Made by a program: the position numbers and the translations under genes. From assembly GCA_024402495.1 (NCBI GenBank), contig JAKSTR010000004.1:1-64000 (forward strand): a stretch of 64,000 nt of DNA, written 5' to 3'. The DNA comes from Treponemataceae bacterium (lineage in GTDB: Bacteria > Spirochaetota > Spirochaetia > Treponematales > Treponemataceae). Shown here piece by piece: positions 25,091 through 58,154 of the stretch (its first letter is position 1; each line of letters opens with the position of its first letter). The notes under the pieces were generated by a model. That model saw only the letters and a list, made by a program, of their open reading frames with translations, ran no database searches and had not been told where the DNA came from.

Positions 25091-27670
25091 ATGCGCGACA
25101 TTCGTGAATATCTGGGCAAGCAGGTTTTAATTTTTGACGGCGGAACAGGTTCAGTTCTTCAGGAAAAAGGACTGAAACCCGGCGAACTGCCGGAAAACTG
25201 GAATATTGAACATCCGGAAAGTATTGTAGACCTTAATTATTCTTACTTTGCAGCCGGTTCAAACCTTGTAAACACAAATACTTTTGGCGCATTTGAAACC
25301 AAGTTTACAGGCTTCAAAAGCTATTCCCTTGAAAAAATAATCAGCGCCGCGGTTGCCAATGCAGTTGCCGCCCGCGAAAAAATTGAAGCAGAAACAGAAA
25401 ATCCCAACAGCAGACAGCCCCATTTCATTGCCTTTGATATTGGTTCCTGCGGCAAGCTTCTGGAACCGCTTGGCGATTTAAGCTTTGAAGGCTGCGTTAC
25501 CCTGTTCAAAAAATCGTTCAGAATTGCCCTAAAACAGCCAGTTGACCTTATCGTAATTGAAACAATAAACGACATTTACGAAGCAAAAGCTGCCGTTATT
25601 GCGGCAAAAGAAGCAATGGAAGAAACCGGAATCGAAGTTCCCGTTTTTACCACCACGGTTTACGATCAGGGCGGCAAGTCTTTAACCGGTTCCGGGCCGG
25701 AAATTGCCGTCAGCGTTCTGGAAAGCCTTGGCGTTACAGCCCTCGGTTTAAATTGCAGCCTTGGACCTAAAGAAATGACCCCAATGGTAGAAGCGCTTCT
25801 TAAAAATGCCAGCCTGCCTGTAATCGTAAAGCCCAATGCCGGGCTTCCGCGCAGCGAAAACGGCAAAACCGTATTTGACGTAAAACCGGAAGAATTTTCT
25901 GACCTGGTAAGCGGATTTGCAAAAAACGGCGCTCTTGTTGTTGGCGGCTGCTGCGGTACTACGCCGGAACACATTCGCCTGCTTGCAGAAAAAGTGCGTG
26001 CCGGCGAAAAATCCGGCGAAATTGTGGCAAAATACCCGGAAGACAAAAATATTGCAGTCATTTCAAGCTGTACAAAGTTTGTTACGTTCGGCAAAGCCCC
26101 GGTTCTTATCGGCGAACGAATAAACCCTACCGGCAAGAAGAAATTTAAAGAAGCACTCCGCAACAACGACATTCCATATATTTTAAACGAAGGCATTACG
26201 CAGGAAGAAAAAGGCGCTCAGGTGCTGGATGTAAACGTTGGGCTTCCTGAAATTGACGAAGTTGCCATGATGGAACGCGTGGTAAAGGAACTTCAGAGCG
26301 TAACCGACCTTCCATTACAGATTGATACATCTGACCCGGTTGCAATGGAAAAAGCCCTGCGCCTGTACAACGGCAAGCCTTTAATCAATTCGGTAAACGG
26401 CAAGCAGGAAATTATGAAGGCAATTTTTCCGCTGGTAAAAAAATACGGCGGCGTTGTTGTCAGCCTTACAATCGACGAAGGCGGCATTCCCGAAACTGCC
26501 GAAGGGCGCATTGCAATAGTAGAAAAACTGTACAAAACCGCCGCAGAATATGGAATTGCGGCTAAAAATATTATCATTGACCCGCTGGCAATGGCAGTCA
26601 GTAGCGATGACAAAGCCGCCATTGCTACTTTGGAAACAGTAAAATACGTAAAAGACGTAAAACACGGTCACACGATTCTTGGCGTTTCAAACGTTTCTTT
26701 CGGGCTTCCTTTGCGCGAACAGATTACGGCAGCCTTTTTTACAATGGCAATGCAGAACGGCTTAAGCGCCGCAATCATGAATCCAAGTGCAAAAGAAATG
26801 ATGAAGGCATGGACCTGCTTCTGCACGCTTTCGGGCTATGATCCCCAGTGCCTGAATTATATCAGTTTTGCAGACAAAATGACCGAAGAAGAATCTTCAA
26901 AAGCTCAGGCTATGGCGGCAGCGGCAGCAAATGCAGTGCTGGCGGCGGCAAGCGGAAAACCTGCCGTGGCTGGAACGGCTGTCAGTGCGGTAAGCGTGCC
27001 TGCCCAAAATGGCGGAACAAATTCCGCCGCACCCGCTGCAAGCGACAAATCGGGCTTAAAATATGCAATAACAAAAGGCATGAAAGACGCCGCCGAAAAA
27101 GAAGCACGTACCCTTTTGCAATCCGCAGATTCAATGACCGTAATTAACGAATACATCATTCCGGCTTTGGATATTGTTGGCAAAGGCTTTGAAGAAAAGA
27201 AAGTTTACCTTCCGCAGCTTTTAATGAGTGCCGAAGCGGCAAAACAGGCTTTTGGCGTTATAAAAGAAGAACTGGACAAATCCGGTAAAAAAGAAGAACC
27301 CAAAGGTTCAATCGTTGTTGCAACCGTAAAAGGCGACATTCACGACATTGGCAAAAACATCGTAAAAGTTCTTCTTGAAAATTACAGTTTCCGCGTAATT
27401 GATTTGGGCAAAGACGTGCCGCCAGAAACCGTAGTTGAAACTGTCGTAAAGGAAAATATTCAGATGGTAGGCTTAAGCGCGCTAATGACAACAACTGTGC
27501 CGGCTATGGCAGAAACCATAAAACAGCTGCGCAAAAAAGCACCGTGGTGCAAAGTTTGCGTTGGCGGCGCGGTTTTAACCCAGGAATATGCAGACATGAT
27601 TGGCGCAGATGCTTACGGCAAAGATGCAATGGAAACCGTAAAATATGCCCAGAAAGTTTTCAACTGCTAG
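25091..27670 (+). CDS. metH: Cobalamin-dependent methionine synthase MetH lacking its activation domain
   Basis: 859 residues. Residues 1-300 form the homocysteine-binding barrel with zinc ligands in GLNCSLGP and GGCCGTTPEH. The pterin-binding barrel spans about 337-600 (LIGERINPTGKKKF). An Ala-rich linker covers about 605-650. The cobalamin cap is at about 654-735, and the B12-binding domain follows with GDIHDIGKN near residue 747, supplying the lower-face His. The SAM activation module is encoded separately just upstream. AAAAGGAG precedes ATG 25091. Confidence 0.96.
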   Translation: MRDIREYLGKQVLIFDGGTGSVLQEKGLKPGELPENWNIEHPESIVDLNYSYFAAGSNLVNTNTFGAFETKFTGFKSYSLEKIISAAVANAVAAREKIEAETENPNSRQPHFIAFDIGSCGKLLEPLGDLSFEGCVTLFKKSFRIALKQPVDLIVIETINDIYEAKAAVIAAKEAMEETGIEVPVFTTTVYDQGGKSLTGSGPEIAVSVLESLGVTALGLNCSLGPKEMTPMVEALLKNASLPVIVKPNAGLPRSENGKTVFDVKPEEFSDLVSGFAKNGALVVGGCCGTTPEHIRLLAEKVRAGEKSGEIVAKYPEDKNIAVISSCTKFVTFGKAPVLIGERINPTGKKKFKEALRNNDIPYILNEGITQEEKGAQVLDVNVGLPEIDEVAMMERVVKELQSVTDLPLQIDTSDPVAMEKALRLYNGKPLINSVNGKQEIMKAIFPLVKKYGGVVVSLTIDEGGIPETAEGRIAIVEKLYKTAAEYGIAAKNIIIDPLAMAVSSDDKAAIATLETVKYVKDVKHGHTILGVSNVSFGLPLREQITAAFFTMAMQNGLSAAIMNPSAKEMMKAWTCFCTLSGYDPQCLNYISFADKMTEEESSKAQAMAAAAANAVLAAASGKPAVAGTAVSAVSVPAQNGGTNSAAPAASDKSGLKYAITKGMKDAAEKEARTLLQSADSMTVINEYIIPALDIVGKGFEEKKVYLPQLLMSAEAAKQAFGVIKEELDKSGKKEEPKGSIVVATVKGDIHDIGKNIVKVLLENYSFRVIDLGKDVPPETVVETVVKENIQMVGLSALMTTTVPAMAETIKQLRKKAPWCKVCVGGAVLTQEYADMIGADAYGKDAMETVKYAQKVFNC

Positions 27671-27689
27671 TTTCCCGTGCTTTCATTCC

Positions 27690-27884
27690 GTCATTCCGAA
27701 CCTGTTTCGGAATCTTATTCTGATAACAAAGCGGATGCTGTGCGCAGCCACCGAAGGCTAACAAGTTCAGCATGCCTCGCTTTTGCTGCCTGCTCTATCT
27801 CTAACTGTTATTTGGTGTGGGCAAAAACCCCAGTTTTTTGCTTTGCGAAAAACTGGGACTATTTTTATAAAAGTTCAGCATGAC
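27690..27884. repeat. Dispersed GTCAT...ATGAC palindromic repeat, long copy
   Basis: The segment starts GTCATTCCGAA, contains the hairpin TCCGAA/TTCGGA, and ends TTCAGCATGAC, like the copy at 64-150. It contains a second internal TTCAGCATG (27764-27772) followed by extra DNA with a terminator-like hairpin, suggesting a composite or an insertion within the repeat. Confidence 0.55.
27829..27866 (+). terminator. Probable terminator downstream of metH
   Basis: CCCAGTTTTT (27829-27838) pairs with AAAAACTGGG (27848-27857), followed by ACTATTTTT. It lies inside the dispersed repeat and would end the metF-metH transcript. Confidence 0.5.
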
Positions 27885-27923
27885 CTGACCGGCTTGTAGA
27901 CATTCGGGCTTGTTTGATGAAAT

Positions 27924-27952
27924 TTACATCATCACAAATATTAAAGTATAAT
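27924..27952 (+). promoter_or_regulatory. Promoter placed directly before the start codon (leaderless)
   Basis: TTACAT (27924-27929) and TATAAT (27947-27952) are spaced 17 bp. Only six bases separate the -10 box from ATG 27959, so transcription should begin at or beside the start codon. There is no Shine-Dalgarno sequence. Confidence 0.7.
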
Positions 27953-27958
27953 TGAACC

Positions 27959-29752
27959 ATGAAAATTCTTCTTGTTTCCGTAAACGCAAGCTACATGCAC
28001 ACCAATGTTGCCATCAGGGCGCTAAAAACCTATGCAGAAAAATACTGCACGCTTAAAAACCTTCAAATTGAAATTGCCGAATACACAATTAACCAGCCGA
28101 CTGGCGAAGTTTTAAGAAACATCGGCTTTTCAGGCGCAGATGCGGTATTTTTTTCTACCTACATTTGGAACGGCGAATACGTTTGCAAGCTGATTCCGGA
28201 AATTAAGAAATTTTTGCCCGGCTGTCTTATAGGAGCCGGTGGCCCGGAATTCGGGTACAGCGCAGAAAAATACCTTAAAATGCTGCCGGCTTTGGATTTT
28301 GTAATGTTTGGCGAAGGCGAAAAAACTTTTTCGCAGATTGCAGAACTGTTTTCACAAAATCAGGATTTTAAGTCTGTAAAAGGCATTTACTACAGAAACC
28401 CGGCAGAACCGGCATTAAACGAAGCGGCGGCAAAAACGGCAGCTGAACAATTTTTCAGACCTGCGGCACAAAAAGAAGCAGGCGCCGGCACAGTTGTGTA
28501 TACCGGCGACCCTTTGCCGGTAGAAAATCTTGACGATTTGCCGTTCGCCTATCCGGAAATTCTTTCCGGCAATTTTGACCCTGACCACAAAATTTATTAT
28601 TACGAATCTACAAGAGGCTGCCCTTTCGGCTGCGCGTACTGCCTTTCTTCCGTAGACAAGCGGGTACGCTTTAAAAGCCTTGAAAAAGTTCAGCAGGAAC
28701 TTCAGATTTTTCTGGACGCAAATGTAAAACTCGTCAAGTTTATTGACCGCACCTACAACCTGAACCCAGACCGCTACATTCCCATCTGGGAATACATTTT
28801 GCAGAATCACAACGGCAAAACCATGTTTCATTTTGAAATTGAAGCAGAATATTTTTCCGAAGAAGCCATGAATTTTCTTCAGAAAGTGCCGGAAGGCGTT
28901 ATGCAGTTTGAAATGGGCGTTCAGTCTGCAAACAAGGAGACCTTAAAAGCCGTAAACCGTTCTTCAAACGTGGAAATTCTTGCAGAAAAAATCCGGTGCA
29001 TTCCGCGAACCATTCACCAGCACCTTGATTTAATTGCCGGGCTGCCTTACGAAGACCTTGAAAGTTTTGGCAGAAGCTACGATTTTGTCATGGATTTGCG
29101 CCCAGATGCCCTTCAGCTGGGATTTTTGAAAATTCTTAACGGCACGGTAATGGCAGAAATTGCTTCGCAAAACGGCTGGAAGTGGATGGGAACCCCGGTT
29201 TACGAAACTTTTTCCACGCCGTACCTTAGTTTTGAAGACGTGGCGTTTTTAAAAGACGTGGAAATTGCTACAGACGCTTACTGGAATAAAAAAATCTTTT
29301 CTTCCACGATGAACTATATGTTCCGCAAAATCAGCCCGTGGGCTTTTATCTGTTCAATTACGAATTTTGGAAGAAGCAAAGGCGCTTTTTCGCAGGCGCG
29401 GAAAGACTTGTACTGGTTCACTCTGCTGAATGAATTTGCCCAATGCCTGCAGGGCGGAAAGTTTTTTTGCAGCGAAGAACTGATGACGCAGTTTGCCGCG
29501 TTAAATGTTCCTCTAATCAGGGATTTGCTTCGGTATGATTTTGTGCGCGGCGGCAAAAAAGGCAATTTTCCGGAATGGTACGGGCACCGCTACGACAAAG
29601 ACAGACACCGCCTGCTTATGGACTCGCAGGATTTGGACGGAAGCACGCGGATTAAATTTGCCATGAGCGAATACGAAGTTTTTGACTTTGATGTTACCGC
29701 CGAAAAACCGGAAGAACACCCGGGCACTTTTGAACTTTTAATCACTTACTGA
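27959..29752 (+). CDS. B12-binding domain radical SAM protein
   Basis: 597 residues. An N-terminal Rossmann-like B12-binding domain (about 1-130, YMHTNVAIRALKTYAEKY) is followed by a radical SAM core with the cluster motif RGCPFGCAYC at about residues 219-228. A C-terminal extension matches the DUF4080-type family as I remember it. The substrate is unknown. It follows the methionine synthase genes, and use of a corrinoid cofactor is plausible but not shown. The N-terminal domain lacks the DxHxxG histidine of base-off B12 binders, which is common in this group. Confidence 0.88.
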   Translation: MKILLVSVNASYMHTNVAIRALKTYAEKYCTLKNLQIEIAEYTINQPTGEVLRNIGFSGADAVFFSTYIWNGEYVCKLIPEIKKFLPGCLIGAGGPEFGYSAEKYLKMLPALDFVMFGEGEKTFSQIAELFSQNQDFKSVKGIYYRNPAEPALNEAAAKTAAEQFFRPAAQKEAGAGTVVYTGDPLPVENLDDLPFAYPEILSGNFDPDHKIYYYESTRGCPFGCAYCLSSVDKRVRFKSLEKVQQELQIFLDANVKLVKFIDRTYNLNPDRYIPIWEYILQNHNGKTMFHFEIEAEYFSEEAMNFLQKVPEGVMQFEMGVQSANKETLKAVNRSSNVEILAEKIRCIPRTIHQHLDLIAGLPYEDLESFGRSYDFVMDLRPDALQLGFLKILNGTVMAEIASQNGWKWMGTPVYETFSTPYLSFEDVAFLKDVEIATDAYWNKKIFSSTMNYMFRKISPWAFICSITNFGRSKGAFSQARKDLYWFTLLNEFAQCLQGGKFFCSEELMTQFAALNVPLIRDLLRYDFVRGGKKGNFPEWYGHRYDKDRHRLLMDSQDLDGSTRIKFAMSEYEVFDFDVTAEKPEEHPGTFELLITY

Positions 29753-29853
29753 AAAAATGTGCCGGAATTTGCAATTTTTTCCTGCTGAAAAACGCAGCGG
29801 CGGCTTTAACGAAGTTCAGCCTTTAATGCCGCGCAAAGACCGGCACTGCAAAA

Positions 29854-29882
29854 TGCTGATAAAACTTTAATATTTCTGTATA
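29854..29882 (+). promoter_or_regulatory. Promoter close to the ygiQ-type start codon
   Basis: CTGATA (29854-29859) and TATAAT (29877-29882) are 17 bp apart. Eight bases lie between the -10 box and ATG 29891, with no ribosome-binding site, so the mRNA is probably leaderless. Confidence 0.65.
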
Positions 29883-29890
29883 ATAGGCTT

Positions 29891-31747
29891 ATGACTGATT
29901 TTCTTATTACACAAAAATCTGATATGAAGGCACGCGGGCTTGAAGAAGTGGATTTTGTATTTGTTTCCGGCGACGGCTATGTAGACCACCCGAGTTTTGC
30001 AGCGGCGCTTTTGGGTCGCCTGCTGGAAGCAAACGGATATACGGTTGCACTTCTTCCCCAGCCGGACTGGAAAAATCCTGAAAGTTTTAAAATTTACGGT
30101 AAGCCTAAGCTTGCGTTTCTGGTTTCCGCCGGTGCAATGGATTCGATGGTCAGCAATTACACTGCAAACAACAAGCCGCGTTCCAAAGATGCGTACGCCC
30201 ACGGCGGAGAAAAAGGTCACCGCCCGGACAGGGCAATTACGGCGTATGTTGGCGCAATACGGCAGGCGTATAAAGGCGTAAACGTAATTATCGGCGGAAT
30301 TGAAGCAAGCCTGCGCCGTACTTCGCATTACGATTACTGGAGCAACACCGTCAAGCGTTCGGTTCTTTTGGACAGCAAGGCTGACCTTTTGATGTATGGA
30401 ATGGGTGAACATTCAACACTGGAAATTGCGGCACAGCTTAAGGAAGGCAAATCGGCAAGGGAAATACGCAATGTGCGCGGAACCTGCTGGTATACGGGGC
30501 GGCAGGCTGACATTGACGAACTTTTTGCAAAAGACGAAAGTGAACTTATAAATAACAAAAAGCCAATTCTGCTTCCCAGTTTTGAAGAAGTTAAGGCAGA
30601 CACCCCTGAATGCAAGGCAAATTTTGCCAGAAGCTATTTAATTCAGGAAAAAAATACGGATGCATTAAACGCTGCAACTTTAATTGAAAAAGCGGATGCC
30701 AGATATGTCGTTCAAAATCCGCCTTCGCTGCCACTTACAACCGAAGAAATGGATAAGGTTTACGAACTTCCTTTTATCCGCAAGTGGCATCCCATGTACG
30801 ATGAACCTGCCGCCAACGGCAAAACCGGCATTCCGGCTCTTTCAGAAGTTAAGTTCAGTTTAACCAGCTGCCGCGGATGTTTTGGCGCGTGCAGTTTCTG
30901 CGCAATTACGTTCCATCAGGGAAGGCGCATTCAGTCCCGAAGCCACGAAAATATTATAAAAGAAGCCGAAGCTCTGACTCACGACCCGGATTTTAAAGGG
31001 TACATTCACGATATTGGCGGGCCTACTGCCAATTTCCGTAACGATGCCTGCGAAAAACAGAAAAAAGCCGGCGCGTGTCAAAACCGGGACTGTCTTGGCG
31101 TAGACCCGTGCCCGAACGTAAAGTTTGACCACAAGGATTATGTTCAGCTTCTTGGAAAATTGAGGGCAATTCCGAACGTAAAAAAAGTTTTCATTCGTTC
31201 CGGCATTCGTTTTGATTACCTTATGCGCGACAAAGACAAAACTTTTTTCTACGATTTGTGCAAGCATCACATCAGCGGTCAGCTGAAAGTTGCGCCGGAA
31301 CACGTTAATGACAATGTTCTGCGCCTTATGCGAAAGTCTACGCACAAAGTTTACGAAGATTTTTCAAAAGAATATGAACGCATCAACAAGGAATTAGGCA
31401 AAAAGCAGTATCTTGTTCCATATTATATTGCAGGGCATCCCGGTGCGGACTTAAGCGCCGCCGTTGATGTGGCGCTGTATCTTAAAAAAACGGGGTTCGT
31501 TCCGGATCAGGTTCAGGATTTTTACCCGACCCCCGGAAGCCTTGCCACATGTATGTACTGGACGGGGCTTAATCCGTGGAAGACTGAAGCCGACGGCAGT
31601 TTTGAAAAAGTATATGTAGCCCGCGGCGCCCACGAACGAAAATTGCAGCGTGCCTTGTTGCAGTTTAACAGACGGGAAAATATGCCGCTTGTAAAGGAAG
31701 CCTTAAAACTTTGCCACAGAGAAGACGCTTTTAACAAACTGTATTAG
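29891..31747 (+). CDS. YgiQ-family radical SAM protein
   Basis: 618 residues. The radical SAM cluster motif is CRGCFGACSFC near residue 326, within the typical SLTSCRG context, followed by GRRIQSRS. Residues 1-310 form the YgiQ N-terminal domain (SGDGYVDHPSFAAALLGR). A second Cys-rich segment (CQNRDCLGVDPCP) follows the core. The biochemical role of YgiQ proteins is not established. No Shine-Dalgarno site precedes ATG 29891. Confidence 0.93.
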   Translation: MTDFLITQKSDMKARGLEEVDFVFVSGDGYVDHPSFAAALLGRLLEANGYTVALLPQPDWKNPESFKIYGKPKLAFLVSAGAMDSMVSNYTANNKPRSKDAYAHGGEKGHRPDRAITAYVGAIRQAYKGVNVIIGGIEASLRRTSHYDYWSNTVKRSVLLDSKADLLMYGMGEHSTLEIAAQLKEGKSAREIRNVRGTCWYTGRQADIDELFAKDESELINNKKPILLPSFEEVKADTPECKANFARSYLIQEKNTDALNAATLIEKADARYVVQNPPSLPLTTEEMDKVYELPFIRKWHPMYDEPAANGKTGIPALSEVKFSLTSCRGCFGACSFCAITFHQGRRIQSRSHENIIKEAEALTHDPDFKGYIHDIGGPTANFRNDACEKQKKAGACQNRDCLGVDPCPNVKFDHKDYVQLLGKLRAIPNVKKVFIRSGIRFDYLMRDKDKTFFYDLCKHHISGQLKVAPEHVNDNVLRLMRKSTHKVYEDFSKEYERINKELGKKQYLVPYYIAGHPGADLSAAVDVALYLKKTGFVPDQVQDFYPTPGSLATCMYWTGLNPWKTEADGSFEKVYVARGAHERKLQRALLQFNRRENMPLVKEALKLCHREDAFNKLY

Positions 31748-43014: not shown

Positions 43015-43050
43015 ATTATATTTCTTTTTGAATATTACGCAACACGTAAT
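43015..43050 (-). promoter_or_regulatory. higBA promoter and probable operator
   Basis: On the minus strand TATAAT lies at 43020-43015, with TTGCGT at 43042-43037 (16-bp spacing). The inverted repeat ATTACG-N5-CGTAAT (43034-43050) covers the -35 box and is a likely HigA binding site. The start codon follows the -10 box by six bases. Confidence 0.55.
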
Positions 43051-58126: not shown

Positions 58127-58154
58127 ATTATACAAATTTATGGCTTTTTGTCAA
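58127..58154 (-). promoter_or_regulatory. Consensus promoter of ispE-spoVG
   Basis: On the minus strand TTGACA (58154-58149) and TATAAT (58132-58127) are 16 bp apart, both perfect consensus boxes. The ispE start follows the -10 by nine bases, leaving a leader of only about 2-3 nt. Confidence 0.8.

Follow-up and report, generated by a model that had tools for sequence, protein, structure and literature searches.

Predicted leaderless transcription of two radical SAM genes from start-codon-proximal promoters in a Treponemataceae bacterium

Two consecutive radical SAM genes of a Treponemataceae bacterium each carry a TATAAT box that ends 6 nt before the predicted ATG, and because of this distance transcription would be expected to begin with the A of that codon. 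We consider it probable (about 0.85) that both genes are transcribed from housekeeping-sigma promoters of their own into leaderless mRNAs, and that Treponemataceae regularly use two layouts, of which this arrangement is one. The promoter elements, their spacing, the excess of that spacing over chance and its conservation were read directly from the DNA. The first-pass annotation had suggested that leaderless initiation may be a regular mode in this organism; the suggestion was supported in silico by a spacing peak, by accompanying −35 elements, by a location at the heads of transcription units, by orthologues and by a family-wide excess.

Promoter elements at the two genes

Both genes lie in the window, the whole 64-kb stretch of DNA that was analysed, which belongs to an assembly of 2.97 Mb in 202 contigs. 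The first gene (27959–29752, + strand), predicted to be leaderless, encodes a B12-binding/radical SAM/DUF4080 protein (Pfam PF02310, PF04055 and PF13311), whose closest named relatives are those of Treponema MAGs and isolates, the best being from Candidatus Treponema equifaecale at 70% identity. The second (29891–31747, + strand), likewise predicted to be leaderless, encodes a YgiQ family radical SAM protein (PF08497; TIGR03904 at 796 bits, cut-off 462). No start codon intervenes between either ATG (27959 or 29891) and the in-frame stop upstream of it. The preceding gene (25091–27670) codes for a MetH-like protein (859 aa) in which Pfam found homocysteine, pterin and B12-binding domains but no reactivation domain. 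Between it and the DUF4080 gene there is an intrinsic-terminator-like hairpin of 13 pairs with a T-rich tail (27829–27857, + strand). The intergenic region 27671–27958 consists mostly of dispersed repeats, and parts of it, for example ∼27690–27774, have copies with 82–100% identity in many of the genome's other stretches; the gap between the two radical SAM genes (29753–29890), in contrast, shows no such recurrence elsewhere in the genome.

A sigma-70 scan of both strands from 27,500 to 30,100 returned two promoter-like sites, one at each of the two ATGs. The TATAAT that had been placed six bases before ATG 27959 was confirmed in the sequence and by the scan (27947–27952, + strand), and the transcript of the DUF4080 gene is accordingly placed, as a prediction from this box, with its first base at A 27959. 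Before ATG 29891, a gap of eight bases had been claimed; the box lies at 29879–29884 (+ strand; sequence and scan), which leaves a gap of 6 nt. A −35 element at a spacing of 17 bp, proposed for both genes, was found at the YgiQ gene (CTGATA, 4/6, 29856–29861, + strand). At the DUF4080 gene the hexamer at 17 bp is only TTACAT, and the better element is TTTACA (5/6, 27923–27928, + strand) with an 18-bp spacer. The complete promoters scored 11/12 (TTTACA-18-TATAAT, 27923–27952) and 10/12 (CTGATA-17-TATAAT). As the number of promoter-like sites in the scanned region did not exceed that in shuffled sequence (2 against a mean of 2.9), the evidence lies in the position of the sites and not in their count.

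The reported lack of a Shine-Dalgarno sequence at both starts was borne out, with at most three consecutive matches to the anti-Shine-Dalgarno complement at each. The lack is not an independent argument for leaderless initiation, since AT-only hexamers in the same position rule out a Shine-Dalgarno sequence just as often (10/54 for candidates versus 28/130 for AT-only hexamers, P = 0.69). A first, unfair comparison (7/54 versus 283/466) had looked strong, and this line of evidence was dropped as circular.

Similar layouts had been described before higB and ispE. The TATAAT boxes were present at 6 and 9 nt, respectively. The ispE gene (TIGR00154) has a perfect 12/12 promoter, TTGACA-16-TATAAT (58127–58154, − strand), 9 nt before ATG 58117; it is predicted to be near-leaderless, with an expected leader of ∼2–3 nt. 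At higB (PF05015), the box lies 6 nt before ATG 43008 (43015–43020, − strand), and no −35 element passed the sigma-70 scan. A palindrome, TTACG-N5-CGTAA (43035–43049, − strand), falls in the −35 region upstream of higB and is plausible as a candidate operator for the antitoxin.

Spacing between −10 elements and start codons in the genome

The spacing of promoter elements was analysed in 741,865 bases of the genome, comprising the window and 40 further stretches. In these 742 kb, 520 open reading frames (ORFs) were called by a simple and conservative codon-score caller that made no use of upstream signals. Raw counts of TATAAT before any ATG, with no prior ORF calling, had too much noise to be decisive and were dropped. 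Before any plausible start of the 520 ORFs, TATAMT occurred 10 times at 6 nt and seven times at 7 nt, as compared with 0–5 times at all other spacings, and the peak at 6–7 nt was absent when the hexamers were reversed or permuted. When a −10 element (at least 5/6) was required to be paired with a −35 element (at least 4/6) at 16–18 bp, 19 pairs were found at 6 nt, six at 7, five at 8 and five at 9. The mean over 26 other spacings (0–30 nt without 5–9) was 2.08, which gives a Poisson P of ∼1e-12 for the 19 pairs at 6 nt. The excess over background at 6–9 nt amounts to ∼27 of the 520 ORFs, or ∼5%, an estimate that depends on the conservative ORF caller.

The candidate −10 elements were preceded by a −35 element 16–18 bp upstream in 25 of 54 cases; among AT-only controls the proportion was 18/130 (P = 6e-6). 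A close co-directional gene upstream was present for one of 22 candidates and for 170 of 456 other genes (P = 0.001), after genes without a judged neighbour (3 candidates and 39 others) had been set aside. A pyrimidine at position −1, counted in the same genome as an initiator test, was not enriched (37/54 versus 84/130, P = 0.73). Thirty candidates were listed and 20 of their proteins were run against Pfam; most fell into common housekeeping families, which included PurD, a ParA-like ATPase, RecO, apolipoprotein N-acyltransferase, Ham1, an Era-like GTPase with a KH domain, RF-1, 4-alpha-glucanotransferase and bactofilin.

Conservation of the layout in Treponemataceae

Orthologues of three genes were compared, the third being purD, taken from the list of candidates in the genome itself. 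For DUF4080, the sample drew on 48 regions of 104 matched genomes, with matches that began at query residue 1–3 and did not lie at a contig end, and on named loci, 10 of 25 of which were left out as duplicate contigs, judged by length; L096 (67 bases) was also left out. Removal of near-identical upstream sequences reduced 63 regions to 60. For YgiQ, 32 regions of 70 genomes with a match were used, which with that of the window made 33, reduced to 31; for purD, loci from the 30 best of 52 matched genomes were used, reduced to 27.

Of the 60 DUF4080 orthologues, 13 had a −10 element of at least 5/6 at a distance of 6 nt from the start and seven had one at 7 nt (20/60 in all), against a background of 0.45 per other spacing in the range from 0 to 45. 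Examples are TGCTATACT-GAAGGC-ATG, TGTTATAAT-TGCCCT-ATG and TGATATACT-GCTGCG-GTG; six of the 20 leaderless-type orthologues start with GTG. Of 31 YgiQ orthologues, 10 had the element at 6 nt and five at 7 nt (15/31), with 0.25 per other spacing. The corresponding numbers for purD were 12 and four (16/27), and here the −35 element could also be followed: TTG stood 35 nt before the ATG in 13 of 27 orthologues and 36 nt before it in six, with at most two at any other offset. Transcription beginning with the A of the ATG predicts just this, a −35 element at −35 relative to the start codon. At all three genes, these orthologues from other Treponemataceae have kept the spacing although the upstream DNA has diverged.

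The layout was missing, in the sense of no 5/6 element at 6–7 nt, from 40 of 60 DUF4080 and 16 of 31 YgiQ orthologues, and 11 of 27 purD orthologues were without it. Some of the other DUF4080 orthologues have Shine-Dalgarno-like leaders (L005 and L008, for example, are preceded by AAGGATAAAA), and some lie apparently close behind another gene. Since several DUF4080 and YgiQ orthologues without the layout look leadered or close behind another gene, it is dispensable.

Across 99 genomes of the family, the extended pattern TGNTATAMT-N6-RTG occurred 2,412 times, as compared with 565 occurrences at N12 and 332 of the reversed N6 pattern, and N6 exceeded N12 in 99 of 99 genomes. With ATG as the start the counts were 2,182 at N6 and 370 at N12. 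With GTG there was no clear family-wide excess (230 at N6 versus 195 at N12, P = 0.10), and the use of GTG consequently rests on the orthologues only. The genome under study is among those with weaker excesses (10 at N6 versus four at N12 and five reversed). Its 10 TGn-extended −10 boxes at spacing 6 compare with 14–37 in the six genus mates searched; despite this small number, −35-dependent leaderless-type promoters are frequent in it. In single genomes of other spirochaete families, N6-RTG exceeded the reversed pattern by 72 to 4 (G257), 43 to 4 (G183) and 18 to 0 (G268). One family of 12 small genomes (f5) in the phylum-wide search of 198 showed no clear excess (38 versus 28 reversed).

Proposed leaderless initiation as a minority layout

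From this arrangement we infer the transcription start, the absence of a leader and the mode of ribosome loading. RNA polymerase with the housekeeping sigma factor would begin the mRNA at the A of the ATG, leaving no 5′ leader, and recognition of the start codon at the 5′ end would load the ribosome, by 70S or IF2-assisted initiation, with no Shine-Dalgarno helix. Leadered genes with a Shine-Dalgarno sequence would form the majority layout in Treponemataceae; in the minority layout, estimated at ∼5% of genes, promoter and start codon would be merged at the heads of transcription units.

The mRNAs might instead start further upstream and carry a leader devoid of a Shine-Dalgarno sequence, TATAAT being present by chance or as part of an unstructured AT-rich zone that aids ribosome loading on such leaders. 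Genes of this kind are many in bacteria, and AT-only hexamers are common at the position in question (130/520 ORFs). AT-richness cannot, however, produce a spacing peak 1–2 nt wide, of which permuted hexamers show no trace, and the −10 elements are accompanied by −35 elements and by transcription-unit heads. In addition, the scan around the two genes passed no other promoter-like site, and the terminator-like hairpin separates the metH-like gene from the first promoter; we regard an upstream start as improbable. It is still less probable, indeed very much so, that the promoters are real and that translation begins further downstream, on mRNAs with short leaders. The start codons are predicted ones, and codon 12 of the YgiQ gene is a further ATG in frame. 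Against this, the N-terminus of the DUF4080 product, MKILLVSVNASY, recurs in similar form in closer orthologues, and its B12-binding match starts at residue 7; position 1 of TIGR03904 aligns at residue 4 of the YgiQ protein, and the GARS_N domain of PurD begins at residue 1.

Mixed use deserves more weight than either, while remaining rather unlikely in our judgement: a leaderless promoter at the ATG would be combined with read-through or with a second promoter upstream, giving a leadered mRNA in some conditions. Dual transcription starts are common among bacteria, and genes that have both types of orthologue, such as DUF4080 and YgiQ, could pass through a mixed state. The scan, which does not cover alternative sigma factors, gave one promoter per gene, which counts against mixed use.

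Leptospira interrogans belongs to the same phylum as Treponemataceae, on a different spirochaete branch. Differential RNA-seq of this species gave ∼440 mRNAs with an untranslated region of <10 nt (PMC5243855), which are measured leaderless mRNAs, whereas those of Treponemataceae are predicted from sequence. Zheng et al. (2011; PMC3160421) took a TANNNT motif ∼12 bp upstream of the start as the Pribnow box of TA-led leaderless genes; in their table, 6 of 18 Spirochaetes genomes have predicted leaderless genes, at 1.8–6.9% of genes. The position of the signal is alike in our genome and the estimate of ∼5% compares with that range; their main text does not name Treponema, and it is not known to report gene-by-gene conservation of the layout among spirochaete orthologues, which is present here. 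Experiments in Deinococcus-Thermus, as reported in PMC12340547, demonstrated that a −10 element at fixed spacing next to the ORF drives leaderless expression; there, ∼30% of ORFs have such an element, as compared with ∼5% in our genome, where a −35 element is often present, and many relatives of which have TGn-extended TATAMT. A search of a literature library, at the level of titles and the beginnings of abstracts, found no report of leaderless mRNAs in Treponema, and no transcription-start map for Treponema was found. Since bacteria, and spirochaetes among them, are already known to have leaderless genes, the present case belongs to a known kind. What is new is the gene-by-gene conservation of the leaderless layout within Treponemataceae, with numbers.

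It looks as if an uncommon but known mode of starting protein synthesis is routine in this Treponema-type bacterium. If ∼5% of genes lack a leader, this should be taken into account in genetic tools for these bacteria as well as in the annotation of their start codons and the prediction of their promoters, and gene callers based on Shine-Dalgarno sequences will misplace some starts. A further reading, which we put forward tentatively and with less than even confidence, is that leaderlessness in Treponemataceae may be a trait selected at particular genes: in a core group comprising purD, YgiQ and DUF4080, the distances between −35 element, −10 element and start would have stayed fixed across many genera while the other upstream DNA turned over, and the group would constitute a family-wide leaderless regulon. 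RF-1, ParA and RecO would, on that tentative reading, probably be further members of the group. Were such a regulon to exist, its translation would depend on 70S/IF2 initiation and could be tuned apart from that of genes led by a Shine-Dalgarno sequence. The retention of a merged promoter and start at single genes offers concrete targets, with purD foremost, for studying what keeps some genes leaderless over long times.
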